From positions 1 through 41,694 of the forward strand of contig LADZ01000020.1 of assembly GCA_000961845.1 (NCBI GenBank): 41,694 bases of DNA. Direction: 5' to 3'. Positions 28,144 through 40,871 of the stretch are shown here, in pieces. This DNA comes from Flavobacteriales bacterium BRH_c54. GTDB lineage: Bacteria; Bacteroidota; Bacteroidia; Flavobacteriales_E; Vicingaceae. Below the pieces are notes generated by a model, which worked only from the letters and a program-made list of their open reading frames with translations, was not told the origin of the DNA and did no database searches. The number at the start of each line of letters is the position of its first letter. Position 1 is the first letter of the stretch. The position numbers were made by a program, and so were the translations under genes.

Positions 28144-31100
28144 TTGAAGTTTATAACTAGTTGTCAAAAAAGGATATTTCGATTCTTAGTAAGCAGTTTA
28201 TTTATATTGCTTACCAATTTTATTGTTGCCCAACATTATCATTTTGACAATTACAGTGTAAAAGAAGGTTTGGCTCAGTCGGGAGTTTATGCCATAACTC
28301 AAGATAAAAAAGGTAAACTTTGGTTGGGTACAGCAAGTGGACTTTCTGCTTTTGATGGTAAGGAGTTTATCAATTTTTCTACTGAAGATGGGTTAGCTGA
28401 AGGTGGAGTGAAATCATTGATATTAGACACTTTAGGGAATTTATGGGTTGGTCATGAAGGAGGAGGAGTCTCCTTAATTCAACAGGGAAAAGCAAGCATT
28501 ATTTTTAACTTTCAGGCAGATATAACCTCATTTTCTTTTACTAAAAATGGTAGTTTGTGGATAGGGACTTATAAAGAAGGAGCTATTCAGGTGCTTAATC
28601 CTTATGAAATTAATAAAGATTCGTTAAAAATTAAACAATACAAAGGTCAGGATGGTTTAAGTGATATTATTTATCAAGTATTGAGTTTAAAAAATGGGAA
28701 TTCCTGTTTTGTTACTGATGTGGGGATAAAGCAATATCAATCACAAAAAAACGAATTCAGCAATTTTCGGATAGAAGGAATGTCTAATTATTTTCAAATT
28801 ACCTGCATGTATGAGGCAAGTAATGGTGATTTATGGTTAGGAACATACAATGGTGGATTGTATCGATATACAGCTGCTCACGAATTTAAGATTTATGACT
28901 TTATGCGAGATGGTATTGCTTCCAATTGGATAACTACCATTACTGAAGATTTAAAAGGCAACTGCTGGATAGGTACTTGGGGAGGAGGAATATCAATGAT
29001 AAATGATGAACAAATTGTAACTATTAATAAAGATAAAGGTCTGTTCGACAATAATATTAGAAGTTTTGCAGTGGATAGAGAAGGAAATTTATTAATTGGA
29101 AGTAAAGAAACAGGTTTACTTATTTTTAAAGGTTTTCAGCTAGTAAGTTATGGTAAGAATGAAGGGTTATTAAATGAACAAACAAAAGCTATTCAGCAAG
29201 ATGAAAACGGTGATTTTTGGATAGGAACAGGAGCTGGAATTAGCGTTTTTAGTAAAACAAACGATAAACTAACATTAAAACAGCAATTCAATGAGAATAA
29301 TGGATTGTTTTATACTGATATTCGTTTTATCAAAAAAGATAACAAAGACAATTTGTGGATAGGAACTTGGGGGGGCGGAATGTTAGAGTATAACCCTAAA
29401 AGTAAACGATTTCAAAGTAATTACCGCATCAATGCTTTTATGAGTCAACCATTTATTACTGCTTTAGAAGTAGATAAATCAAACAACCTGTGGGTTGGTA
29501 CAACAGATGGCTTAGTTTATTATGAAGTTGAAAATCAGTTGGTAGACAGACTTTCTCAATCTCACGGTTTAGGAGGAAATGATATTTCTTGTTTATATAC
29601 TGATAAAAATAATGTGCTATGGGTGGGAGCAAAAGATAAAGGATTGAGTAAAATTGATGGAACTGAAATTCAAAAGATTAAATTAGAAAAGCAGTTTACC
29701 GCTGTTTGTATGATAGAAGATAATGAAGGAAATCTTTGGATAGGGACAGACGGAAAAGGTATTTTGGTTTTTAATGGTAAAAAAATTATACAAGAAATTA
29801 CTGTGGCAGATGGAATGCTGTCTAATTACATTTCGTTTATCAATATAGATAATGAAGACAATATGTGGATAGGGACCAATAAAGGATTGAACAAATACGA
29901 TAAAAAACAGCAACAATTTTATAGCTATACCAATAAAATGGGGTATAAGGGTATTGAATCTAAATTAAACGCAACATATAAAGATAATGCCGGTGATTTA
30001 TGGTTTGGAACCATTGAGGGGTTAATACATTTAAACAAAAAGTATGAGCAACAAAATTTGTTAGAACCAATTACCTTCATTAATAAACTTATGGTAAACT
30101 TAGAAGAAAGAGCTTTAGCAGATGGAATGGAGCTGAGTTATAGAGAAAAGGCTGTTGCTTTTTATTATAATAGTATTTGTATGACTAATCCGGAAGCGGT
30201 AAATTATAAATATATGTTAGAAGGGTTAGATGAAGATTGGCGACCAATAACCAAACAAACATTTGTAACTTATTCACCATTACCTCCCGGAAAATATACT
30301 TTTAAAGTAATTGCCTCTAATAATAACGGAGTTTGGAACACTACACCAACAACTTATAGTTTTGTAATTACACCTCCATTTTGGCAACAATGGTGGTTTA
30401 TTGGTTTATGTGTTGTATTTCTTGTTGTTACTATTGTTGTGGTAATAAAATTTAGAGAAAAAGCACTGGTTAAGGAAAAACATGTGTTAGAAGAAAAAGT
30501 AAAAGAACGTACTGCTGAAGTGGTTCAAAAAAGTAAAGAGGTTGAAATGAAAAATAAGGATATAATTGATAGTATCAATTATGCTAAGAGAATTCAGGAT
30601 GCTATTTTACCTTCTGAGGAAGAGTTTTCTCAATCTCTAAAAAATACTTTTGTGTTGTTTAATCCCAAAGACATAGTGAGTGGTGATTTTTATTGGATGC
30701 AAATTCTCCCCAACTTTCCAGAAGATGGAGCTGTTGTTCTCTTTGCAGCAGCAGATTGTACCGGACATGGAGTTCCAGGGGCTTTCATGAGTATTGTAGG
30801 ACACAACTTATTGGATAAAATTGTTGGTGAATATCATGTAACATCTCCAGCCGAAATTTTGAATTATTTGAATAAAGGTGTTTCGGAAACTTTACGACAA
30901 AGTGCTGAGCAAACTAATATTAAAGACGGAATGGATATTTCGCTTTGTGTTTTTAATACACAAACCAAAGTGTTAGAATTTGCAGGAGCTTATAATCCCT
31001 TATATATAGTTTCACAACATAATATAGAAGGCGTTGAGGTGAATATGGAAAGTGAAACAGGTTTAAAGCTTTATGAAGTTAAGGCAGATAGGTTTCCAAT

Positions 31101-31377
31101 TGGTAATTATACAGATGAAGTAAAACAATTTACCAATCATTTTTTTAATTTGAATGAGGGTGATACAGTATATTTGTTTTCCGATGGATATGCCGACCAA
31201 TTTGGAGGTGCTCATGGAAAGAAATTCCGTTACAAACAGTTTAAGGAACTTCTGCTAGCTATCAATACTCGGACCATGGAGGAACAAAAAGAAATACTTC
31301 AAAAAACATTTACTGAATGGAAAGGCAGTTTGGAGCAAATAGATGATGTAATTATTATAGGAAGTAGAGTAGAATAG
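28144..31377 (+). CDS. Reg_prop/Y_Y_Y sensor with SpoIIE-type PP2C phosphatase output
   Basis: Membrane protein of 1077 residues. It has a signal peptide of about 30 residues (ending FIVAQ), then many Reg_prop propeller blades (recurring NLWIGTxxGG and DxxGxLWxGT), a Y_Y_Y domain around 690-745 (YKYMLEGLDEDWRPI), a transmembrane helix near 752-772, and a charged coiled coil (about 775-810). The C-terminal SpoIIE/PPM phosphatase has intact motifs: GDFYWM, ADCTGHGVPGAF near 868-880, SDGYADQFGG near 1012, and a terminal IDDVIIIG. The propeller and Y_Y_Y normally feed hybrid histidine kinases; here the output is a Ser/Thr phosphatase, suggesting partner-switching control. The start codon is TTG. 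It converges on two TPR-type paralogues. Ligand and target unknown. Confidence 0.9.
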   Translation: MKFITSCQKRIFRFLVSSLFILLTNFIVAQHYHFDNYSVKEGLAQSGVYAITQDKKGKLWLGTASGLSAFDGKEFINFSTEDGLAEGGVKSLILDTLGNLWVGHEGGGVSLIQQGKASIIFNFQADITSFSFTKNGSLWIGTYKEGAIQVLNPYEINKDSLKIKQYKGQDGLSDIIYQVLSLKNGNSCFVTDVGIKQYQSQKNEFSNFRIEGMSNYFQITCMYEASNGDLWLGTYNGGLYRYTAAHEFKIYDFMRDGIASNWITTITEDLKGNCWIGTWGGGISMINDEQIVTINKDKGLFDNNIRSFAVDREGNLLIGSKETGLLIFKGFQLVSYGKNEGLLNEQTKAIQQDENGDFWIGTGAGISVFSKTNDKLTLKQQFNENNGLFYTDIRFIKKDNKDNLWIGTWGGGMLEYNPKSKRFQSNYRINAFMSQPFITALEVDKSNNLWVGTTDGLVYYEVENQLVDRLSQSHGLGGNDISCLYTDKNNVLWVGAKDKGLSKIDGTEIQKIKLEKQFTAVCMIEDNEGNLWIGTDGKGILVFNGKKIIQEITVADGMLSNYISFINIDNEDNMWIGTNKGLNKYDKKQQQFYSYTNKMGYKGIESKLNATYKDNAGDLWFGTIEGLIHLNKKYEQQNLLEPITFINKLMVNLEERALADGMELSYREKAVAFYYNSICMTNPEAVNYKYMLEGLDEDWRPITKQTFVTYSPLPPGKYTFKVIASNNNGVWNTTPTTYSFVITPPFWQQWWFIGLCVVFLVVTIVVVIKFREKALVKEKHVLEEKVKERTAEVVQKSKEVEMKNKDIIDSINYAKRIQDAILPSEEEFSQSLKNTFVLFNPKDIVSGDFYWMQILPNFPEDGAVVLFAAADCTGHGVPGAFMSIVGHNLLDKIVGEYHVTSPAEILNYLNKGVSETLRQSAEQTNIKDGMDISLCVFNTQTKVLEFAGAYNPLYIVSQHNIEGVEVNMESETGLKLYEVKADRFPIGNYTDEVKQFTNHFFNLNEGDTVYLFSDGYADQFGGAHGKKFRYKQFKELLLAINTRTMEEQKEILQKTFTEWKGSLEQIDDVIIIGSRVE

Positions 31378-31413
31378 ATAGTAGAGGTTAAAGAAATTAT
31401 TGTCAAAAAAACA

Positions 31414-33321
31414 TTAGATACGTATTCCAATTACACAAACATCGTCAACTTGTTCTAAGTTTCCTTTCCATTCGTTAAAACGCTGTTCTAATATTTCTTT
31501 TTGGTCGTCCATATCTTTATCTTGAATGGATAAAAGCAAATTTTTAAAAGGTTTATACATAAATTTTTTACCTTTTGGTCCACCAAACTGATCGGCATAT
31601 CCATCAGAAAAAATGTAAATAGTGTCTCCTTTTTTTAGTTCTATTGAGTGAGGTGTAAAAGATGAGTTTTTAAAATGTTTCCCTATAGGTTGTTTGTCAG
31701 GTCTAATATCTATCAGTTCATGGTCTCTAACAATCCAAAGTGGATTATTAGCACCTGCATATTGCAAAATTGCAGTTGTTTGTGAATTTTTACTTTCAAC
31801 TTTATACTTTATACTGCATAAAGCTATATCCATTCCATCTCTAACGTCTTCATCACTTTTTTCAAATTCTGAAATTACAATTTCACGAGTTTTATTTAGG
31901 ATATCACTTGGGTTAATTAGCCCGTATTCTCTTACACTTCTGTTTAGTCCATTATTACATATTACACTTACCATTGCTCCGGGAACTCCGTGTCCGGTAC
32001 AATCTGCTACAGCGAATAATATTGTATCATTTTTACTTTCTAACCAATAGAAATCTCCCGCAACTATATCTTTTGGTTTGTAGAATATAAATGAATTAGG
32101 AAGGTATTCTTTTATGGTTTTAGAGGAAGGTAAAATTGCCGACTGTATTCGTTTAGCATACTTAATACTATCGGTAACTTCTTTACTTTTCACCTCAAGC
32201 AATAGTTTTTGTGCTTTAATTTTAGTGGTTAATTTTTTAGCCCGTATAAATATAATTATTATAAAAAAAATAATTATAATGCATAACAAAATGAAGTAGA
32301 TAAGTTGTGATATTTTTGATTTTGCTTCAAGCGTATTAAGTTGTTCTTTTTTTATTTTTAATTCTTGTTGTGTAATTATTTGTTCTTTTTCTGATAGTCT
32401 AAGTCTAGTTTCAATTTCATTGATTTTGTTTATTTTTTCAATGGTGAATATTTCTTTTTCAATTTTATCGTTTAGCTTTTTAATTTCCAACGCTTTTTTA
32501 AAACGTTCTTGTTTCTCATAAAGTTCAATTAATACAATATAAGCTTCGTTAGCTTCGTGTAATAAATTGTTATTATTAGCAATAGCTATGCTTTCAAGTA
32601 ATGTTGATTCTGCTTTAGTATATTGTTTGAGATTTAAGTGAGTAATGGCTATTAAGGTTAAGCAAGTTGTTTTGCTGTCTATCATTTCGTGTTTATTGGC
32701 TATTGATAGGGCTTTATTGTATTCTTTTATTGCTTCATCATAATTTTTAACATTAAAATAGTATTTACCAAAGTTTTGATGAAAGAAATATTTACTTTTT
32801 TCTTTCATTTTATCATCAAACCTCTTCAGCTTGGATAAGTAATACAAAGCAGAATCATTCTCATTTCTATCTAAGTAATCTAAACTTATATTTGTTAAGG
32901 AGCTTATTATTCCTGTAGTATCTTTTGCTTTAGTATAAAGTGAAATAGCTTTTTTTTGATGAAAGAGTGCTTGTTCAAAATTGGAAACTCGATTTAATAA
33001 AATGCTTTTTAGAGAATAACATTTTGCCAATAATGATAAATTGTTTTCTTTTTCTAAAAGTTTTATTGTTTTTGTTAAAATAATAGAGGCTTCATCAAAT
33101 TTTGTTTTTAGAATTAAATATCGAGATTGACATATATAAATTTCAGCTAATTCGGTATTAGTTTTTGATTCTATTTTTTCTAATTCTTTACAAATTATAT
33201 AAGAAGAATCAGGGTTTGAATAGTAAACTTCATTAGCAATAATTAATTTATCACTCAACTTTGAAGCAAGTGTAAATTGACAATTAAAAAGTATTATGAG
33301 GTATAAAATTAATTTATTCAT
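31414..33321 (-). CDS. TPR sensor with SpoIIE-type PP2C phosphatase (paralogue 1)
   Basis: Membrane protein of 635 residues from ATG 33321, preceded by 15 upstream in-frame codons that overlap the neighbouring gene and are rejected as start. Signal sequence MNKLILYLIILFNCQFTLASK, then about six TPRs in a probable periplasmic domain, a coiled coil (EKINKINEIETRLRLSEKEQ), a transmembrane segment near 340-362, and a linker DSIKYAKRIQSAILPS. The phosphatase has GDFYWL, ADCTGHGVPGAMVSV near 437-450, SDGYADQFGG and QVDDVCVIG, so the metal-binding Asp residues are present. It starts 20 bases after its paralogue and probably shares its mRNA. Target unknown. Confidence 0.9.
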   Translation of the reverse strand: MNKLILYLIILFNCQFTLASKLSDKLIIANEVYYSNPDSSYIICKELEKIESKTNTELAEIYICQSRYLILKTKFDEASIILTKTIKLLEKENNLSLLAKCYSLKSILLNRVSNFEQALFHQKKAISLYTKAKDTTGIISSLTNISLDYLDRNENDSALYYLSKLKRFDDKMKEKSKYFFHQNFGKYYFNVKNYDEAIKEYNKALSIANKHEMIDSKTTCLTLIAITHLNLKQYTKAESTLLESIAIANNNNLLHEANEAYIVLIELYEKQERFKKALEIKKLNDKIEKEIFTIEKINKINEIETRLRLSEKEQIITQQELKIKKEQLNTLEAKSKISQLIYFILLCIIIIFFIIIIFIRAKKLTTKIKAQKLLLEVKSKEVTDSIKYAKRIQSAILPSSKTIKEYLPNSFIFYKPKDIVAGDFYWLESKNDTILFAVADCTGHGVPGAMVSVICNNGLNRSVREYGLINPSDILNKTREIVISEFEKSDEDVRDGMDIALCSIKYKVESKNSQTTAILQYAGANNPLWIVRDHELIDIRPDKQPIGKHFKNSSFTPHSIELKKGDTIYIFSDGYADQFGGPKGKKFMYKPFKNLLLSIQDKDMDDQKEILEQRFNEWKGNLEQVDDVCVIGIRI

Positions 33322-33341
33322 TTTTGTATCACCTGATTTAT

Positions 33342-35627
33342 CTATATCCGCACTCCAATAATACAAACATCGTCAATTTGTTCTAAGTCTCCTTTCCAAT
33401 TTTGAAAATGTTGTTCTAAAATTATTCTTTGTTCTTGCATGCTTTTTTCCTGTATGGAAAGTAGCAGTTCTTTAAAAGGTTTGTACATCATTTTTTTACC
33501 CTTTGGTCCACCAAACTGGTCAGCATATCCGTCAGTAAAGATGTAAATGGTATCTCCTTTTTGTAAACTAACAGTATGGTTGGTAAAATCATTTTGTCTG
33601 AAATGTTTACCAATGGGTTGCTTGTCGGCTTTAACTTCAATAAGTTCAAAGTTTAAAGTTTGAGGTTTGAGGTTGTTAATAGGGCGAACAATCCAAAGAG
33701 GATTATTTGCTCCTGCATATTGTAGTTTAGCTACTGATTCAGTTTTCTTTAAGGTTGAATCATCAAACTTTAAACTGCATAAAGCGATATCCATTCCGTC
33801 TCTAAGTTTAGAATCATCACCGCTTCTGTCGAAAGTTTTAATAACAAGTTCTCTTACTTTATTTAGGATTTCAGCCGGTTGTTTTAGGTTGTATTCCCCA
33901 ATAGCTCTATTTAATGCTCCATTACAAACTACACTAACCATAGCACCAGGAACTCCGTGTCCGGTACAGTCGGCAGCAGCGAAATAGATAATTTCACTTC
34001 CTTTGAAAGAACCAGATGGGAGCTTCTCCATCCAATAAAAATCTCCGGCAACGATATCTTTTGGCTGGTAATAAATAAAACTATTTTTTAAGGTAGATTC
34101 AAATTCTTCTTCTGTTGGTAAAATTGAATTTTGGATATTTTTAGCATAGTTGATACTATCGGTTATTTCTTTAGTTTTTGCTTCAACTATTTCTTTTTGG
34201 GTATTTATTATTTTTTTTTGTTTTTGACTTTCTTTATATTTTTTAAAAATTACACTTCCGAATAATAATAAAACTAAAACGCCACCACTAAGTCCATATC
34301 TTTCAGTAGTCTGTCGTTTTATTTTTTCATCTTTAGCAGCAATTTCTGCTTGTATAATTTTTTCTTTTTCAACATTTTTGATGCTGTCGGCAAGGAGTTT
34401 TTTGTCGTACTCATATTGTAGGTTTTGTTTTACTAAGTCTTTTCTATTTTTTTCGTTTTTAATACTATCTTGCATTAATACAAATAGTTCGTGGTATTTT
34501 AGGCCATCTTTATAATTTCCTTTCCTAGTATTTAATTTATAAAGAATTTCTGCTGAGTTTCTAATGTTTAATGGAGATTCTGATTCTTTTGCTATTTGTA
34601 TACTTTTATTAGCGTAATATTCAGCTTTTTTAAGGTTATTTTTTTTTAAATATATATTTGCTAAATTGGTATAAGCGAAAACTAATCCGTTGTTATCTTT
34701 AATTTTTTCTAAGATGGCTAAACTTTTTTCAAAATAAGAAAAGCAATCTTTTGTTTTTTCTAAGTTGCTATAAATAAAACCAATATTATTTAAACTATAT
34801 GCAATTAACTTTTTGTTGCCCATCGTTTCTCTTATCTCTAAGCATTTTTTATAGTTTTCTAAAGCTGTTTCGTAGTCGGGTAATTTACTATATACATAAC
34901 CAATATTGTTATAAGCAAGAGATATTCCACTAGGGTTATTTAACTTCTTCATGGTTTTTAAGTTCCTCTTAAAATATTTAAGAGCCATTTTATAGTCTTC
35001 TTGTTCGGCATAAATTAAACCTATATTATTAGTTATTAAGCCTATATTTTCTATATCGTTATTAGGTTCAAAAATTTTTAAAGCTAAATAATAATAATCG
35101 AGTGCTTTTGATACTTCTCCTCTTTGAACATAAGCTCTACCAATATTATTGTATGTTTTTCCAACGGAAGTTAGGTTGTTTAGTTTTTTTTGAATTTTAA
35201 CACTTTCTAAGTAGTAATTTATAGCAAGTTCAAAATCCCCTTTGCTGCTATAGAAATAACCTTTGTTGTTTATAGAAGAAGCTAGCTTATCGTAATAAAA
35301 GTTTTTTTCTTTTTTAGTAACTTTATTAGATTTTAAATTAGTTTTTATATAGAGATAGAGGTATTCATTATATTTTGGCCAAACTTCATCGTTCCAACAT
35401 TCTTCAACAATGTGAGATAAAAGTTTTACTTTGGAAGTATCTTCATTTTTATTGAGTAGGTGTAATTTTTTTAAAGTAGTGTCTATTAACTCTCTATCAT
35501 TTTTAGAAAGTGTTTCTAGTTTTAAAGAATCAATTAAGTAGAATTTTTTATCAGCAAATTCTTGTGCATTAAGAAATTGAAAATTTCCAACAAAAAATAA
35601 AAACAATATTAAAGTTAATCTTTTCAA
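33342..35627 (-). CDS. TPR sensor with SpoIIE-type PP2C phosphatase (paralogue 2)
   Basis: Membrane protein of 761 residues with signal peptide KRLTLILFLFFVGNFQFLNAQ, about eight TPRs (YNNIGRAYVQRGEVSKALDYY, YNNIGYVYSKLPDYETALENY and similar), a coiled coil, a transmembrane segment near 443-462 (GLSGGVLVLLLFGSVIF), and the linker DSINYAKNIQNSILPTEEEF. The phosphatase has GDFYWM, AAADCTGHGVPGAMVSV near 547-562, TDGYADQFGG and IDDVCIIG. The start codon is TTG at 35627 and overlaps the stop of the upstream glycosyltransferase in the sequence TTGA, implying translational coupling. It is a tandem duplicate of the following gene at the phosphatase end; the TPR ends differ more. Confidence 0.9.
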   Translation of the reverse strand: MKRLTLILFLFFVGNFQFLNAQEFADKKFYLIDSLKLETLSKNDRELIDTTLKKLHLLNKNEDTSKVKLLSHIVEECWNDEVWPKYNEYLYLYIKTNLKSNKVTKKEKNFYYDKLASSINNKGYFYSSKGDFELAINYYLESVKIQKKLNNLTSVGKTYNNIGRAYVQRGEVSKALDYYYLALKIFEPNNDIENIGLITNNIGLIYAEQEDYKMALKYFKRNLKTMKKLNNPSGISLAYNNIGYVYSKLPDYETALENYKKCLEIRETMGNKKLIAYSLNNIGFIYSNLEKTKDCFSYFEKSLAILEKIKDNNGLVFAYTNLANIYLKKNNLKKAEYYANKSIQIAKESESPLNIRNSAEILYKLNTRKGNYKDGLKYHELFVLMQDSIKNEKNRKDLVKQNLQYEYDKKLLADSIKNVEKEKIIQAEIAAKDEKIKRQTTERYGLSGGVLVLLLFGSVIFKKYKESQKQKKIINTQKEIVEAKTKEITDSINYAKNIQNSILPTEEEFESTLKNSFIYYQPKDIVAGDFYWMEKLPSGSFKGSEIIYFAAADCTGHGVPGAMVSVVCNGALNRAIGEYNLKQPAEILNKVRELVIKTFDRSGDDSKLRDGMDIALCSLKFDDSTLKKTESVAKLQYAGANNPLWIVRPINNLKPQTLNFELIEVKADKQPIGKHFRQNDFTNHTVSLQKGDTIYIFTDGYADQFGGPKGKKMMYKPFKELLLSIQEKSMQEQRIILEQHFQNWKGDLEQIDDVCIIGVRI

Positions 35628-36553
35628 TTAATGATTTCGTTTACGATATAAGTGGGTCTGTTTTTAACACTTTCAAAAATTTTACCTACATATAAACCGA
35701 CCATTCCTAATACAGAAATAATAGCCCCAGAAAAAAAACTTAATAACAAAGCTAAGCTTGCCCAACCATCAGTTCTGTAATCTCCTAATAAATACATAAT
35801 TACTAAGGTTATAGCCGCTATAACGGATAAAAAAGATAATAAGACGCCCATTTTAACGGTAAGTCTTAGCGGTTTGTCGGAAAAAGTAAGAATGGTGTTT
35901 ATGGCTAATTTCAATCGTTTTTTCATAGAGTAAGAGGATTTTCCATCTTCTCGTTCAGCATGTTGAATAGACACTTTTGCATAGTTAAATCCAACTAATT
36001 GCTGTAACATAGGGTAGTATCGGTTGCTATCGCCAATTAATTTCATGGCTTCAACAGCTTTTCTGTTATAACAAACAAAATTAGCAACGGTATTATCCTG
36101 ATTGGTTTCTGTTAGATAGCTCAATACTGCATAAAACCATTTAGAAGCTATTTTTTTTACAAAATCATCTTTTCGGTTTTCTCGGCTGGCAGCAACAATT
36201 TCGTAGCCTTCTTTTGCTTTGTTGAGTAATTTATAAATTTCTTCGGGTTGGTCTTGTAAATCACAATCCATGGTAATAACATATTTACCTTTACTTGCAT
36301 CTAAACCGGCTTGCAGAGCATGTTGTTGACCACAATTTTTACTCAATTTAATCCCTTTTACGAAAGGATATTTAGTACAGTTTTCTTTGATTTTTTTCCA
36401 AGAATTATCAGGACCGTTATCTTCTACTAAAATAACTTCGAAATTATCAGTGAGTTTAGAAACAGATTCGATAATACGTTCAACCAGTTTGTCTATTAGG
36501 TTTTCTGCCTTATAAACAGGGCTAATTATGGATATTTCTATTGTTGAGTTCAA
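35624..36553 (-). CDS. Family 2 glycosyltransferase with two C-terminal membrane helices
   Basis: Membrane glycosyltransferase of 309 residues, resembling DPM1/GtrB/ArnC enzymes that load a sugar onto a polyprenyl phosphate. N-terminal GT-A fold: ISIISPVYKAENLIDKLVERI, ILVEDNGPDNSW, SKNCGQQHALQAGLDASKGKYV and the metal-binding MDCDLQDQPEE. The C-terminus has two helices near 232-257 and 265-290. The best start is TTG at 36553; no ATG precedes the conserved first strand. It is the fifth gene in the minus-strand glycan run, 48 bases after the methyltransferase, and overlaps the next gene by four bases. Confidence 0.9.
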   Translation of the reverse strand: MNSTIEISIISPVYKAENLIDKLVERIIESVSKLTDNFEVILVEDNGPDNSWKKIKENCTKYPFVKGIKLSKNCGQQHALQAGLDASKGKYVITMDCDLQDQPEEIYKLLNKAKEGYEIVAASRENRKDDFVKKIASKWFYAVLSYLTETNQDNTVANFVCYNRKAVEAMKLIGDSNRYYPMLQQLVGFNYAKVSIQHAEREDGKSSYSMKKRLKLAINTILTFSDKPLRLTVKMGVLLSFLSVIAAITLVIMYLLGDYRTDGWASLALLLSFFSGAIISVLGMVGLYVGKIFESVKNRPTYIVNEIIN

Positions 36554-36601
36554 ATGGCTTTTGTGATTTTGCTTAATATTTGTTGTTTCGTTTTAAAATC
36601 G

Positions 36602-37309
36602 CTATATTTTTTCTGCTCTTATGAAATATTGAGCTCCAATTGGCAACCAAGATAGTAAATTTTCTGTAAAATGAAAAACCTTAAATAATTTATGTCGCGG
36701 AAAAAAAATGGTATATTTTATTTCTTTTAAAGATAGTCCACTATTTGTGATTAGTTTTTTGTGATAGCCAGGTTTTAATAAAACAGCATCTCTATCGAAT
36801 TCACATTCATTTACCACTTTTCTTGTAAGTGGGTTGTTTGGGTTGTGCTCAAAGTTATAGAACCTGCCACCTTGTTTTAAAATACGTTTAATTTCTAATA
36901 AAATATTTGCATGCAACTGGTGTTCAATGTGGTGAAAAACCATAGATGTAAATACTAAATCAAATTCCTCATTGTTAAACGGAATTTTTACTCCGTTAAA
37001 TGCAGAAAATGTAGTATTTAGGAGCTCTTTTTTTTCTGCTTGTTTAATACTTTCTTCAGAAACATCAATACCAACAATAGTTGCGTTAGGAAAATATTTT
37101 CGCAAATAGATAGAACTATTACCATCGCCACAGCCAAAATCAAGAATTTTTAATGGTTTTGAATTATCTTCAAAATTTAGTAATTCTAGAATTTTATATT
37201 CACTAAAGAAATCACTATTTGCGCCACTTAAAGCAATAGCTTTATTGTGTGTTTCTCTATAACCCTCTGCAAATTCATCAAAATTATCAAAGTCTCTTTG
37301 TTTGCTCAT
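36602..37309 (-). CDS. Class I SAM-dependent methyltransferase
   Basis: Methyltransferase of 235 residues in the Methyltransf_11/25 group. Motif I is ILDFGCGDGNSS (55-66), followed by IVGIDVSEESIKQAEKK (acidic Asp binding the SAM ribose), FNNEEFDLVFTSMVFHHIE and LKQGGRFYNFEHNP. The C-terminus is a short lid ending IGAQYFIRAEKI. Its place between a Gfo/Idh/MocA reductase (four bases upstream) and a glycosyltransferase suggests sugar O-, N- or C-methylation of the glycan or its nucleotide-sugar precursor, but a lipid target cannot be excluded. Confidence 0.87.
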   Translation of the reverse strand: MSKQRDFDNFDEFAEGYRETHNKAIALSGANSDFFSEYKILELLNFEDNSKPLKILDFGCGDGNSSIYLRKYFPNATIVGIDVSEESIKQAEKKELLNTTFSAFNGVKIPFNNEEFDLVFTSMVFHHIEHQLHANILLEIKRILKQGGRFYNFEHNPNNPLTRKVVNECEFDRDAVLLKPGYHKKLITNSGLSLKEIKYTIFFPRHKLFKVFHFTENLLSWLPIGAQYFIRAEKI

Positions 37310-37313
37310 ATAC

Positions 37314-38273
37314 TTAGTTTGCTATGTCTCTTATTTCTTGAATTAATTTGGCTTGATTTAATATCTCATCATATTTTGGCTTATAATTTTGCTTTCTAAT
37401 ATTTTTCACAAACTCATGTAAGATATTTATAAAATGGTTTTCAGCAGGAACTTCAATATCAAATTTTTCTCCTTGCTGTTCTACTATTATAAGAGGTTTG
37501 AAATCTGGAGCAGGAGTAAAAGCTCTGTGAGCAGTAATTTTTCCTTTACTACCCCAAATTTCATAATTACATTGATAAAAGTTATCAAATCCAAAAGCCA
37601 CTTCACTAAATAATCCATTTTTGTTTTTCAGGAAAGCTCCACCAAAAATATCTACTCCATTTTCATTATAACTAAGAGAAGCAGCTTTAACTTCCAAATC
37701 GTTGCCCAAAAATAATTGGCTGGCTCTAACGGTATAGGCAGCGGCATCTAATAATGCACCGCCTCCTAATTTTTTATTGTACCTAAAGTTATCAGATGGT
37801 AATGGTGGAAATCCAAATGAACTTCTAAAACATCGTATTTTTCCTATTTTATCTTCTGTAATAAGTTGTTTTACAATTTGGTGTTGATTATGATAGAGAA
37901 ACATAAAGTTCTCCATAATTAGTAAGCCTTTTCCTGTTGCTTTTTGAACCATCTTTTCAGCAGAAGAATAGTTCATTGCTAATGATTTTTCAACTAAAAT
38001 GTGTTTACCAGCTTCTAGGGCTTGTAAAACCCATTCTTCATGCAGCCCTGTAGGTAAAGGCATGTAAATAACATCAATATCTTTTCTGTCAATTAGTTTT
38101 TGATATCCTTCTACAGCTTCACATCCAAATAAATGGGCAAATTCTTGAGCTTTTTCTGCTGTTCTACTAGCAACAGCTACTAATTCAAAATCAGGAATAG
38201 ATAAAATTGCGGGAATAACACTTTTTTTTGCAATGTTGGCACAACCTAAAACACCTATTGTTAGTTTTTGCAT
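37314..38273 (-). CDS. Gfo/Idh/MocA oxidoreductase, probable NDP-sugar 3-ketoreductase
   Basis: NAD(P)-dependent oxidoreductase of 319 residues. The Rossmann motif is IGVLGCANIAKKSV (6-19). The family motif is EKSLAM with Lys96 (95-100), and GGGALLDAAAYTV gives Tyr180. The spacing of Lys96 to Tyr180 equals that of the catalytic Lys102/Tyr186 pair I recall for KijD10, a dTDP-3,4-diketo-2,6-dideoxyglucose 3-ketoreductase. It directly follows the NDP-hexose 2,3-dehydratase by seven bases, which yields exactly the 3,4-diketo substrate. Functional call is therefore an inference from homology class plus context. Confidence 0.88.
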   Translation of the reverse strand: MQKLTIGVLGCANIAKKSVIPAILSIPDFELVAVASRTAEKAQEFAHLFGCEAVEGYQKLIDRKDIDVIYMPLPTGLHEEWVLQALEAGKHILVEKSLAMNYSSAEKMVQKATGKGLLIMENFMFLYHNQHQIVKQLITEDKIGKIRCFRSSFGFPPLPSDNFRYNKKLGGGALLDAAAYTVRASQLFLGNDLEVKAASLSYNENGVDIFGGAFLKNKNGLFSEVAFGFDNFYQCNYEIWGSKGKITAHRAFTPAPDFKPLIIVEQQGEKFDIEVPAENHFINILHEFVKNIRKQNYKPKYDEILNQAKLIQEIRDIAN

Positions 38274-38280
38274 AATTAGT

Positions 38281-39702
38281 TCATTTAAACCTTATGGTCG
38301 ATAATAAACTTCTCGACTGGATATTTAAATAGTTATTAAATTTTATAAAATCTTTTAGCTGATTTAATGTCATCCAACAAAATTTTTCAGGTACTTCAAC
38401 CTCAAAATCATTAGCTACCTCAATTAGCATATTTTTATTTTGTTCTTGATAAAATCTTCCGCCTTCTTCTGATTGAAAAGTGTTATATAACACTTTCGCA
38501 TGGTGTTTTTCAGGATTTAAAACAATATCTAAAAATTCTACCTCATATTCATTTTCTCCCTTACGGTAATTACCTGTTAAACATTGTACTGTAGGAGCTA
38601 GTTCAACAATATCAAAATTGCCGGACTCTAATTTTGCTTGCACTAAAAAGTGATAAATACCATTTATCTTTTTAATTAAAAAAGCAATAATTCCTTCTTG
38701 AGCAGATTTTACTAGTGGTTGCGTCCAACTTTTCACTTCTCTATTGCCAATTTCTGCTTTTACAGCCACTACAGAAAAATATTTATGGTCTTTATGATGA
38801 ATAGAAAAATCGTCTTTTTTCCAATCACTTATACTGTTTAGGGGGATTCTTTCTACTTCCAACTCAGCAAAAGATTTTAATCGGGTAATCCAAGAAATAA
38901 TATGTTCTATAGAATGTATTGCTTTTGAATTATCCAACTCCGATATAAGAAAATTATTTAATTTTAAATCCGTATTTTCTTCTTTCTTAAAGCTTTCAAA
39001 AGTGCTTAAATTTCCAAAAGGAATACCTGAAATAACTGTTCTGGTATCCATATTAATGATGTTGTCGTACTTTAGTAATTCTTTTATTTGTCCTAGTGTT
39101 AACCAACAAAAATTGTCTTTGAGTTCAATTTCACTATTAATCTCCACAATCATATTTCTATTTCTCTTTTTTAGAAAACGAGCACCTTGTTCCGATTGAA
39201 GCTGATCTAATAATACAGTTACATCTTTCCGTTCAGATAAAAAATAATCTAAATAAAACGGTGCATTTCCTTGGTGAACTTGCGTGTAATTGCTTTTTGT
39301 CGCTTGCAAAGTTGGTGAAAGTTGTACCACATTAATGTTTCCGGGTTCTATTTTGGCTTGCATTAAAAAGTATAAGGTATTATTAAACTTTTTGGTAATA
39401 ATTCCTAAAAAACCTATTTCAGGTTGGTTGATAATTGGCTGTGACCACTCTGATACTTTTCCCCAATTAGTTTTTATGTTGATACCTTCAATAGAAAAAA
39501 AATTGCCTGAAAAATGTTCTAAATTGCCCGTAGTGGAATTGAATCCCCAATTTTCCATATTAGAAAATGGTATAAATGTAATTTTATGATGGGTTGTTTT
39601 CTTTTTTTCTTCTATCCAATGCAAAAAATCATCATTGCTCATTAATGTATTTTCTGTTGTTAGAGCAGATTTTAGAAAATGATATTTGATGTTGTTATTC
39701 AT
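38281..39702 (-). CDS. NDP-hexose 2,3-dehydratase
   Basis: Protein of 473 residues of the TylX3/SpnO/EvaA-type family that removes water across C2-C3 of dTDP-4-keto-6-deoxyglucose, opening the way to 2-deoxy sugars. The family hallmark is a tandem duplication, seen here: half 1 (about 40-240) has SQPIINQPEIGFLGII, LMQAKIEPGN and QLSPTLQAT; half 2 (about 270-473) has TQPLVKSAQEGIIAFLI, LVQAKLESGN and ELAPTVQC; each ends with a QSEQGARF or QSEEGGRF and CW(L/M)TL element. It is translated from ATG 39702 and followed seven bases later by the reductase. Confidence 0.93.
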   Translation of the reverse strand: MNNNIKYHFLKSALTTENTLMSNDDFLHWIEEKKKTTHHKITFIPFSNMENWGFNSTTGNLEHFSGNFFSIEGINIKTNWGKVSEWSQPIINQPEIGFLGIITKKFNNTLYFLMQAKIEPGNINVVQLSPTLQATKSNYTQVHQGNAPFYLDYFLSERKDVTVLLDQLQSEQGARFLKKRNRNMIVEINSEIELKDNFCWLTLGQIKELLKYDNIINMDTRTVISGIPFGNLSTFESFKKEENTDLKLNNFLISELDNSKAIHSIEHIISWITRLKSFAELEVERIPLNSISDWKKDDFSIHHKDHKYFSVVAVKAEIGNREVKSWTQPLVKSAQEGIIAFLIKKINGIYHFLVQAKLESGNFDIVELAPTVQCLTGNYRKGENEYEVEFLDIVLNPEKHHAKVLYNTFQSEEGGRFYQEQNKNMLIEVANDFEVEVPEKFCWMTLNQLKDFIKFNNYLNIQSRSLLSTIRFK

Positions 39703-39746
39703 TGTGTTATTTGCAAAATAAAAGTAGTGAAATTTTTGATTTCCGC

Positions 39747-40871
39747 TTATCTAATTGTCTTGTTTATGCTTTCCATTACTAATTGAGCAGTTTTCTCCCA
39801 ACTAAATTTTGTAGCTTGAAGGATGCTTTTTGAGCTTAACGCCTCATGAAAATTTTTGTCAGCAGTAATTTTTTGCATTGCTTGTGCAATTTCGTTTTGG
39901 TTAAACGGATTTACTAAAATACCTGCATCTCCAACAACTTCGGGCATTGAAGTTATGTTAGATGTAATTACAGGCACACCGCATTGCATTCCTTCTAACA
40001 ACGGAATTCCAAAGCCTTCAAAAATAGGAATATAAGTTATGGCTTTTGCCGAAGCAGTAAGTTCAGCAAGTTCTTTGTCATTAATTCTACCTGTAAAAAT
40101 AATATCTGTTTTATGTTTTAGTTCATTTAAAAGCTGAGTAGTTTCAGAGTTGCTCCACATTTTTTTTCCGGCAATTAGTAATTTTAGTGAAGAACCGCTT
40201 TCCGATTTATATTGGTTAAAAGCCTTGAGTAACATAGGAACATTTTTTCTTGGATGAATTGTTCCGACAAATAAAAAGTAATCTACTCCTTCAGCAAACT
40301 TATCTTTAATTACTTGTTTTTCAATTTCACTTATTGGCTTGAATTTTTCACTTGCACCATTAAAAACCACACTAATTTTTGAAGCTTCTATCTTGTATGT
40401 CTGAACAATATCATTTTTAGAAAATTCAGAAACGGTAGCTATTTGATTGGCTTGTTGAGCAAACTTTGGAAAGTACTTTTTATAATAGTTTAATACATTT
40501 TTTGGTAATAGTTCAGGGTGATGCTCAAAGTTTAAATCGTGAATAATAGCTAAGGTTTTTATGTTGCTATTGAGCGGAAACATTCCATCAGTAGCAATAA
40601 AAATATCAGGTTTAAGCTTTTTTAATACATTTTTTAATGCAATTTGGTACCAATAAGGAAAAACATAAATGTGTTTGGTAATTGGACGAATAATAATGGG
40701 ATGAATATTTTTTGCGGTAATAAATTCTTCATCAGGCCTTCTGTCGAAAATAAAATAAAAATCTATTTCGGGGTGTTGCTGTGCTAAAAGTGAAAAGGTT
40801 TGCCAAGTAAACAAACCTATGCCGTCCATTTTGTTTGTAATGACTAATCGGGTATTTACGGCAATTTTCAA
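39747..40871 (-). CDS. Family 4 glycosyltransferase
   Basis: GT-B retaining glycosyltransferase of 374 residues, first gene of the visible minus-strand glycan run. N-terminal domain begins KIAVNTRLVITNKMDGIGLFTWQ. C-terminal motifs are FVGTIHPRKNVPMLLKAFNQY, LLIAGKKMW and the E-x7-E region FEGFGIPLLEGMQCGVPVITS. The only plausible start is TTG at 40871, because homologous proteins start at this MKIAVNTR position and no in-frame ATG lies upstream. The start codon lies inside a TACTTTTG sequence that also matches the -7 promoter element, probably by coincidence. Sugar donor unknown. Confidence 0.9.
   Translation of the reverse strand: MKIAVNTRLVITNKMDGIGLFTWQTFSLLAQQHPEIDFYFIFDRRPDEEFITAKNIHPIIIRPITKHIYVFPYWYQIALKNVLKKLKPDIFIATDGMFPLNSNIKTLAIIHDLNFEHHPELLPKNVLNYYKKYFPKFAQQANQIATVSEFSKNDIVQTYKIEASKISVVFNGASEKFKPISEIEKQVIKDKFAEGVDYFLFVGTIHPRKNVPMLLKAFNQYKSESGSSLKLLIAGKKMWSNSETTQLLNELKHKTDIIFTGRINDKELAELTASAKAITYIPIFEGFGIPLLEGMQCGVPVITSNITSMPEVVGDAGILVNPFNQNEIAQAMQKITADKNFHEALSSKSILQATKFSWEKTAQLVMESINKTIR

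Follow-up and report, generated by a model that had tools for sequence, protein, structure and literature searches.

Three sensory membrane proteins of a Flavobacteriales bacterium carry SiaA-class phosphatase domains and probably act on SiaC proteins

The SiaABCD system of Pseudomonas aeruginosa consists of a phosphatase (SiaA), a kinase (SiaB), a phosphoprotein (SiaC), and a diguanylate cyclase (SiaD). According to the parts of the published accounts consulted (PMC7647112, PMC8457831), SiaA acts on SiaC at T68, SiaB is the kinase, and unphosphorylated SiaC activates SiaD; the former describes SiaA as having a HAMP domain and two membrane spans. Both belong to a SiaABC literature that, as far as found, concerns P. 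aeruginosa. DUF1987 is called widespread in a portion of PMC8457831, and similar PP2C/STAS pathways are proposed for Campylobacterota in a portion of PMC9239204. Among the literature matches listed, no paper title dealt with a SiaABC system in Bacteroidota, and a literature search found no paper on SpoIIE proteins with Y_Y_Y, propellers, TPR, or partner switching in Bacteroidetes/Bacteroidota. Here we describe three adjoining genes, REGSPO, TPRSPO1, and TPRSPO2, in a 41,694-nucleotide stretch of DNA (the window; contig LADZ01000020.1, here C55) from the assembly of Flavobacteriales bacterium BRH_c54 (2.9 Mb, 95% complete; genome G000). The three proteins are very probably membrane receptors with a SiaA-class PP2C phosphatase in place of a kinase, acting on SiaC encoded elsewhere in the genome.

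The trio shares features with three described systems. Like SiaABCD, it has a PP2C domain with a linker and a DQxGG loop, SiaB and SiaC are encoded in the genome, and a T68-type phosphosite occurs in three of the five SiaC proteins. Unlike SiaABCD, the window genome has about 19 receptors, scattered genes, five SiaC proteins, and no GGDEF motif in the 0.35 Mb scanned; and unlike SiaA, the trio has TPR or propeller sensors, no HAMP domain by Pfam, and one transmembrane segment (TM) before the linker. REGSPO alone resembles the hybrid two-component system (HTCS) glycan sensors BT4663 and BT3049 of Bacteroides in its propeller and Y_Y_Y ectodomain, the predicted model of which aligns with 4a2m (target-normalized TM-score, TMt, 0.74-0.76) and 3v9f (TMt 0.70). 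Unlike these sensors, it has no histidine kinase, receiver, or DNA-binding domain by Pfam, but a SiaA-type phosphatase instead. With RsbU/RsbV/RsbW and SpoIIE/SpoIIAA/SpoIIAB the trio shares a PP2C domain matched by the SpoIIE Pfam family and an expected kinase/phosphatase balance on a STAS-like fold. It differs from those switches in the subfamily of its phosphatase, and the kinase and substrate expected for it, SiaB and SiaC, are of other families; a canonical set runs parallel to it in the same genome.

The initial annotation of the window had described three intact sensor-SpoIIE genes at 28144-35627, two encoding TPR-TM-SpoIIE proteins in tandem and a converging one encoding a Reg_prop-Y_Y_Y-TM-SpoIIE protein. 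All three open reading frames (ORFs) are open, and Pfam bears out the domain plan (REGSPO: Reg_prop 2.9e-50, Y_Y_Y 1e-18, SpoIIE 1.6e-16; TPRSPO1 and TPRSPO2: TPR_12 6.5e-14 and 3.4e-39, SpoIIE 5.3e-16 and 5.5e-13, respectively). The motifs GDFYW, ADCTGHGVPGA, S/TDGYADQFGG, and DDV are present in all three, as had been noted. The features are as follows.

28144..31377, plus strand: REGSPO, 1077 amino acids; N-terminal hydrophobic segment, two-propeller Reg_prop and Y_Y_Y ectodomain (BT4663-like), one TM, linker, SiaA-type PP2C
30490..31374, plus strand: REGSPO coiled linker and SiaA-type PP2C; linker core DSINYAKRIQDAIL at 30568-30609
31414..33366, minus strand: TPRSPO1, 650 amino acids; TPR sensor, TM, linker, SiaA-type PP2C
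31417..32250, minus strand: TPRSPO1 linker and PP2C; linker core at 32131-32172
33342..35627, minus strand: TPRSPO2, 761 amino acids; TPR sensor, TM, linker, SiaA-type PP2C; first start codon overlaps the GT2 stop by 4 bp
33345..34238, minus strand: TPRSPO2 linker and PP2C; linker core at 34119-34160; orthologous to L162/L148/L262/L263

One membrane segment is predicted before the linker in each protein, and an N-terminal hydrophobic segment exceeds the threshold in two of the three. The closest named relatives of REGSPO in a similarity search were Flavobacteriales and Vicingaceae metagenome-assembled genomes (MAGs). The absence of a kinase, STAS protein, or sigma factor from view was confirmed: genome profile searches gave no match to STAS, RsbW-like HATPase (HATPase_c_2), or SiaC on contig C55, and a Pfam scan of the 23 larger window ORFs found no sigma factor.

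The phosphatase halves of the trio are of the SiaA class and not of the RsbU/STAS type. A profile was built from the linker and PP2C of 17 of the genome's 19 such domains, leaving out L037 (linker YAKGLQ) and a copy cut by a contig end. Against solved structures this profile matched 6k4e_A at 5.2e-60, with an alignment spanning the linker and the DQxGG loop, and the next match was at 1.5e-6. As stated in the portion of PMC7647112 consulted, 6K4E is the SiaA-PP2C of P. aeruginosa, and D457, D474, G477, D600, G601, and D653 are strictly conserved in SiaA; all of these correspond to invariant columns in our 17-row alignment (alignments read by eye). The linker DSxxYAxxIQxAIL and the DGxxDQxGG loop are common to SiaA and the trio's family, a criterion chosen here rather than a published definition. 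The best NCBIfam model for all three proteins is NF038263 (SiaA), at 1.9e-58 for REGSPO (residues 780-1077), 1.6e-51 for TPRSPO1, and 2.3e-46 for TPRSPO2, whereas the GAF-SpoIIE protein of the same genome reaches it at only 9e-6. For the predicted structure of TPRSPO2 (mean predicted local distance difference test score, pLDDT, 80; predicted TM-score, pTM, 0.52), the first Protein Data Bank match by Foldseek was 6k4e (TMt 0.83). For that of REGSPO (pLDDT 76, pTM 0.51), BT4663 came first and 6k4e ranked 29th, behind propeller structures (TMt 0.84).

SiaC adopts a STAS-like fold and belongs to a Pfam family of its own. Five SiaC matches occur in the window genome (one on contig C42, one on C23, and three on C4), and each exceeds the Pfam cut-off. 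A gene for a SiaB-family kinase (159 bits; cut-off 85) sits immediately upstream of the C42 SiaC, and the genome has at least one SiaB. The solved-structure counterparts are from Pseudomonas: 6kko and 6k4f for SiaC, and 6kko for SiaB. One of the five SiaC proteins stands beside SiaB and one (C4:90915-91268) beside a SiaA-type receptor. The position of T68 is occupied by T, T, V, T, and D, that is, by threonine in three of the five. No GG[DE]EF motif occurs in 353,492 bases of the window genome's loci, as compared with three matches in the control loci L059/L060, and the target of SiaC in this genome may not be a cyclase. The trio had been proposed to be sensory phosphatases with a distant or novel substrate. 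The distant substrate fits, being encoded elsewhere and expected to fall outside the Pfam STAS family; novelty does not, as the expected class is SiaC, given the 6k4e match, the SiaC genes, the NCBIfam SiaA model, and co-occurrence.

Co-occurrence was scored in 80 of 101 genomes, comprising the window genome, 39 relatives (G049 left out), and 40 genomes of the class selected according to their SpoIIE matches (21 strong, 6 weak, and 13 without). Matches to the SiaA-type profile (E<=1e-15) and to SiaC (E<=1e-3) are both found in the same 39 genomes and are both missing from the same 41 (Fisher 1e-23 by genome). Genomes of one family are not independent, and therefore 25 unmixed families were also taken as units: 12 have both and 13 have neither (Fisher 2e-7). 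In the mixed family f9, three of seven genomes have both and four have neither.

These results point to a mechanism in which REGSPO would sense ligands outside the inner membrane through its propeller domain, like glycan-sensing hybrid kinases, and TPRSPO1 and TPRSPO2 would do so through TPR superhelices. The membrane helix and coiled linker (DSxxYAKRIQxAIL) would relay the signal to the metal-dependent phosphatase, presumably a dimer, which when active would strip phosphate from the threonine of SiaC-type proteins. The SiaB-type kinase on C42 would phosphorylate SiaC, and the balance of kinase and phosphatase would set the amount of unphosphorylated SiaC able to bind its target. About 19 receptors would feed few SiaC nodes, with the output half retained while receptors were gained or lost and, in TPRSPO2, the sensor was swapped. 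The SiaABC switch known from Pseudomonas has probably been multiplied and given new sensors in Bacteroidota. If so, a testable substrate and kinase become available for those Bacteroidota proteins that match nothing more specific than the SpoIIE phosphatase family, and the question of what SiaC binds in Bacteroidota becomes concrete.

Several points weigh against SiaC as the substrate of the trio. Our own SiaB and SiaC profiles have no match within the window. The NF038263 scores are 198.5, 175.6, and 158.6 bits against an equivalog cut-off of 700, with only the last ~270 residues matching; because the whole-protein score is under 700 bits, the trio are, by sequence, SiaA-like receptors and not SiaA itself. 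SiaA F612, implicated in SiaC contact by simulation according to the part of PMC7647112 consulted, is replaced by lysine in most of the trio's family (alignments read by eye). The 80-genome set was chosen with SpoIIE matches already known, and 13 of its genomes lack any SpoIIE. An RsbW-like kinase and a STAS protein are encoded in the window genome, and the kinase in every genome with SiaA-type domains, so that there may be cross-talk. Receptors may also be paired with particular SiaC proteins. SiaC and SiaA-type matches number 5 versus 20 in the window genome, 15 versus 13 in G327, 4 versus 2 in G332, and 3 versus 2 in G306; because the last three have more SiaC than SiaA-type domains, fan-in is not a general rule, and many receptors converging on few SiaC proteins is a reading for the window genome and its like.

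The window genome has 20 SpoIIE matches: 18 complete ORFs with the linker, a GAF-SpoIIE (C52) without it, and a C-terminal piece at a contig end. This piece is at the end of C12 (L034), and an N-terminal linker ORF runs off the start of C40 (L031); the two are probably one SiaA-type gene broken by assembly. The 18 complete ORFs, plus the two pieces counted as one gene, amount to about 19 SiaA-type receptors. The near-identical linker to which the initial annotation drew attention is present in all three trio proteins but is not particular to them. Since 18 of the 20 SpoIIE matches carry it, the DSxxYAKRIQxAIL-type linker is a family signature. Genus relatives have 9 to 25 SpoIIE matches each, some being pieces of one gene, and 25 genomes of the family have from 2 to at least 31 matches each to a linker-type profile (best 31 candidates per genome scored). 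The linker and PP2C of the 18 own copies are 35-71% identical to one another (median 48%), and the output domains of reciprocal-best pairs between genomes are 80-99% identical; rampant gene conversion among linkers is not indicated by these values.

An RsbU-type switch has its parts in the genome as well. One stand-alone STAS protein (121 amino acids, in the fur-STAS-purA locus, L021) and one stand-alone RsbW-like HATPase (139 amino acids, beside ybeY, L023) were found, both off the window contig and with SpoIIAA and RsbW relatives among solved structures. In such a switch the trio would act on the STAS protein, the RsbW-like kinase would oppose it, and a sigma factor or other target would be released, which we consider improbable. 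The HATPase occurs in 39 of 39 genomes with SiaA-type domains, but it is not specific to them, occurring also in 20 of the 41 without, as against 39/39 and 0/41 for SiaC (HATPase cut-offs 1e-12 and 1e-10; G339 passes the laxer only). In the class to which the window genome belongs, the sampled genomes that have the HATPase (E<=1e-12) are exactly the 22 with strong SpoIIE matches (E<1e-30), and none of eight with weak ones has it. We read this 22/22 agreement as following the GAF-SpoIIE type, because the strong matches in the window genome are those of GAF-SpoIIE. The PP2C halves of the trio are, moreover, far nearer to SiaA than GAF-SpoIIE is, and the STAS protein and RsbW-like kinase likely partner the GAF-SpoIIE at L028:2642-3865. 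The pair was set aside as a partner of the trio after the 6k4e match and the co-occurrence of SiaC in the 80 genomes. Because of SulP transporters, the STAS profiles did not yield a clean co-occurrence count. A second STAS gene, before an RNase Z-like gene (named by eye), is located at L047:~127-441 and is absent from the window genome's matches to the STAS profile.

The genes upstream of TPRSPO2 suggested another reading.

35624..40871, minus strand: deoxysugar/glycan genes (putative operon); GT2, methyltransferase, MocA-type oxidoreductase, NDP-hexose 2,3-dehydratase, GT1; kept in L045 (G296/G304), L046 (G297/G302), L262, and L263

The initial annotation had seen a local sensory module possibly linked to this operon. 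On that account the trio would have co-evolved as a glycan module controlling the deoxysugar genes through a private substrate, which is highly unlikely. The REGSPO ectodomain model does resemble glycan-sensing BT4663, and the 4-bp overlap of GT2 with TPRSPO2 recurs in five of five genus genomes (G000, L045, L046, L262, and L263; G301 left out), whatever the TPRSPO2 sensor; this overlap, the part of the proposed link that stands, argues for co-expression only. Against the module, the gene following TPRSPO2 varies between genomes, and in G303 and G305 (L107/L109) REGSPO and TPRSPO2 are on separate contigs, with a different receptor after TPRSPO2. In L048 and L049 REGSPO is present but a TPR receptor is missing from the remainder of the contig, and the same output domains are scattered over the genome, the trio being 3 of about 19 receptors. 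A chance tandem duplication without joint meaning is exceedingly unlikely. Tandem SiaA-type pairs do occur elsewhere in the window genome, two on C40 and one on C61, and the nearest paralog of TPRSPO2 leads only narrowly (C61 copy 68%, TPRSPO1 66%). However, the closest paralog of TPRSPO1, with which it also clusters, is a C40 copy (70%), TPRSPO2 clusters with the C61 copy (FastTree 0.911), and the REGSPO output domain is in a different clade from both; by these comparisons the trio did not arise by tandem duplication. The initial annotation would have taken random positions in related genomes, with no conserved neighbours, as a sign of chance duplication, and half of that picture is seen: the arrangement is preserved in three of the five genus genomes read, but the three genes are not mutual closest relatives.

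In this lineage the sensor of TPRSPO2 has been exchanged for another, whereas the phosphatase half has remained orthologous.

34430..35530, minus strand: replaced sensor segment of TPRSPO2, by nucleotide identity to the sister loci L045 and L046

Compared with L045 and L046, the TPRSPO2 output is 84-85% identical and the sensor 45%, with neighbouring genes at 94-96% (medians). From 35530 to 34430 the window has mostly 40-64% nucleotide identity to L045 and to L046, and in the 0.6 kb flanking each side the sisters are mostly 81-100% alike to the window. Between L045 and L046, identity is 81-100% over 34430-35295 and falls to 65-77% farther upstream, at the 5' end of the segment. The more distant L107 and L109 have an L045-type sensor at 67-71%. 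In the output-domain tree TPRSPO2 stands with its four orthologs (FastTree 0.983). No donor of the sensor was found, the best match being 38% among the loci compared, with no whole-protein match above the orthologs in 41 genomes. Because L107 and L109 keep the L045-type sensor and the window sensor has no match above 38%, the latter looks, from sequence comparison, like a newcomer in its lineage. We considered chimeric assembly, against which stand the preserved frame and domain plan of TPRSPO2. Replacement as a general habit finds no support at short range: among 14 (G296) and 16 (G297) reciprocal-best pairs with the window genome, TPRSPO2 alone has a sensor below 77% (45%). The low G296-G297 pair L154_6683/L135_948 (sensor 27%, output 80%) is probably a paralog mismatch, because L136_1, which matches better, is truncated at a contig end. 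Own receptors without a reciprocal-best partner number 5 of 19 in G296 and 3 in G297, each including one cut gene. TPRSPO2 is followed in L262 and L263 by a gene for another propeller receptor, whose output groups with a TPR clade (0.887) and not with REGSPO; fusion of a propeller ectodomain to a SiaA-type output seems to have happened at least twice.

Two further observations concern orthologs of the trio. In the TPRSPO2 orthologs of L107/L109 the Pfam SpoIIE match falls into two parts, suggesting that the PP2C domain contains an insertion. Directly before REGSPO, at L046:7636-9978, L047:7192-9531, and L050:215-2554, is a ~780-amino acid TPR protein with a C-terminus that is caspase-like by eye.

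Operons of Sia genes occur in other genomes; these regions were mostly picked for SiaC near a receptor or for few receptors and are examples, not a count. With a SiaB profile built from four SiaB-like proteins, two of them located in scored loci, SiaB was placed no more than 1.5 kb from SiaC in 29 of 30 best-SiaC loci (exception L239). SiaA-SiaB-SiaC runs occur in G049, G146, G186, G317, and G321. The first three genomes have one SiaA-type domain each, inside the run, and such one-receptor operons offer a simple system for finding the SiaC partner. Two Clostridia loci (L059 and L060), recovered by similarity to the REGSPO C-terminus only, are both SiaA-SiaB-SiaC-GGDEF runs. In L053, from a MAG labelled Draconibacterium, three SiaB-like genes and SiaC are followed by one gene and then, 1.7 kb after, by a propeller-Y_Y_Y-SiaA-type receptor.

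It is conceivable, although on balance doubtful, that this bacterial family and its class relatives use SiaABC as their main trans-membrane hub, with up to about 30 exchangeable-sensor receptors per genome, some with HTCS-type ectodomains, a handful of SiaC proteins, no cyclic di-GMP output, and a conserved SiaC clade that lost the threonine as a phosphorylation-blind partner. The proposal is weakened by several genomes in which SiaC are as numerous as SiaA-type domains. Across 85 SiaC rows (two duplicates removed), the residue at the T68 position is T in 56, S in 10, V in 6, I in 6, L in 3, D in 3, and A in 1; the rows were partly hand-chosen, so that the proportions are not a census. The 15 V, I, and L rows form one clade (FastTree 0.868), consisting of L254:6528-6932 and 14 more (e.g., L271, L274, L277, L284, and L285). 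Aspartate occurs at this position in L033:9901-10290 and in rows from L272 and L276.

Beside SiaC in G049 is a gene (L264:7042-10110) for a ~1000-amino acid fusion of TerB, ABC ATPase, and ABC2 membrane domains, as assigned by Pfam on the L264 copy. ORFs of similar size and start occur in L265, L266, L267, and L268 (genomes G146, G186, G326, and G045), and the genomes with such an ORF beside SiaC belong to three families. The TerB-ABC-ABC2 protein is a lead as a candidate output partner of SiaC.

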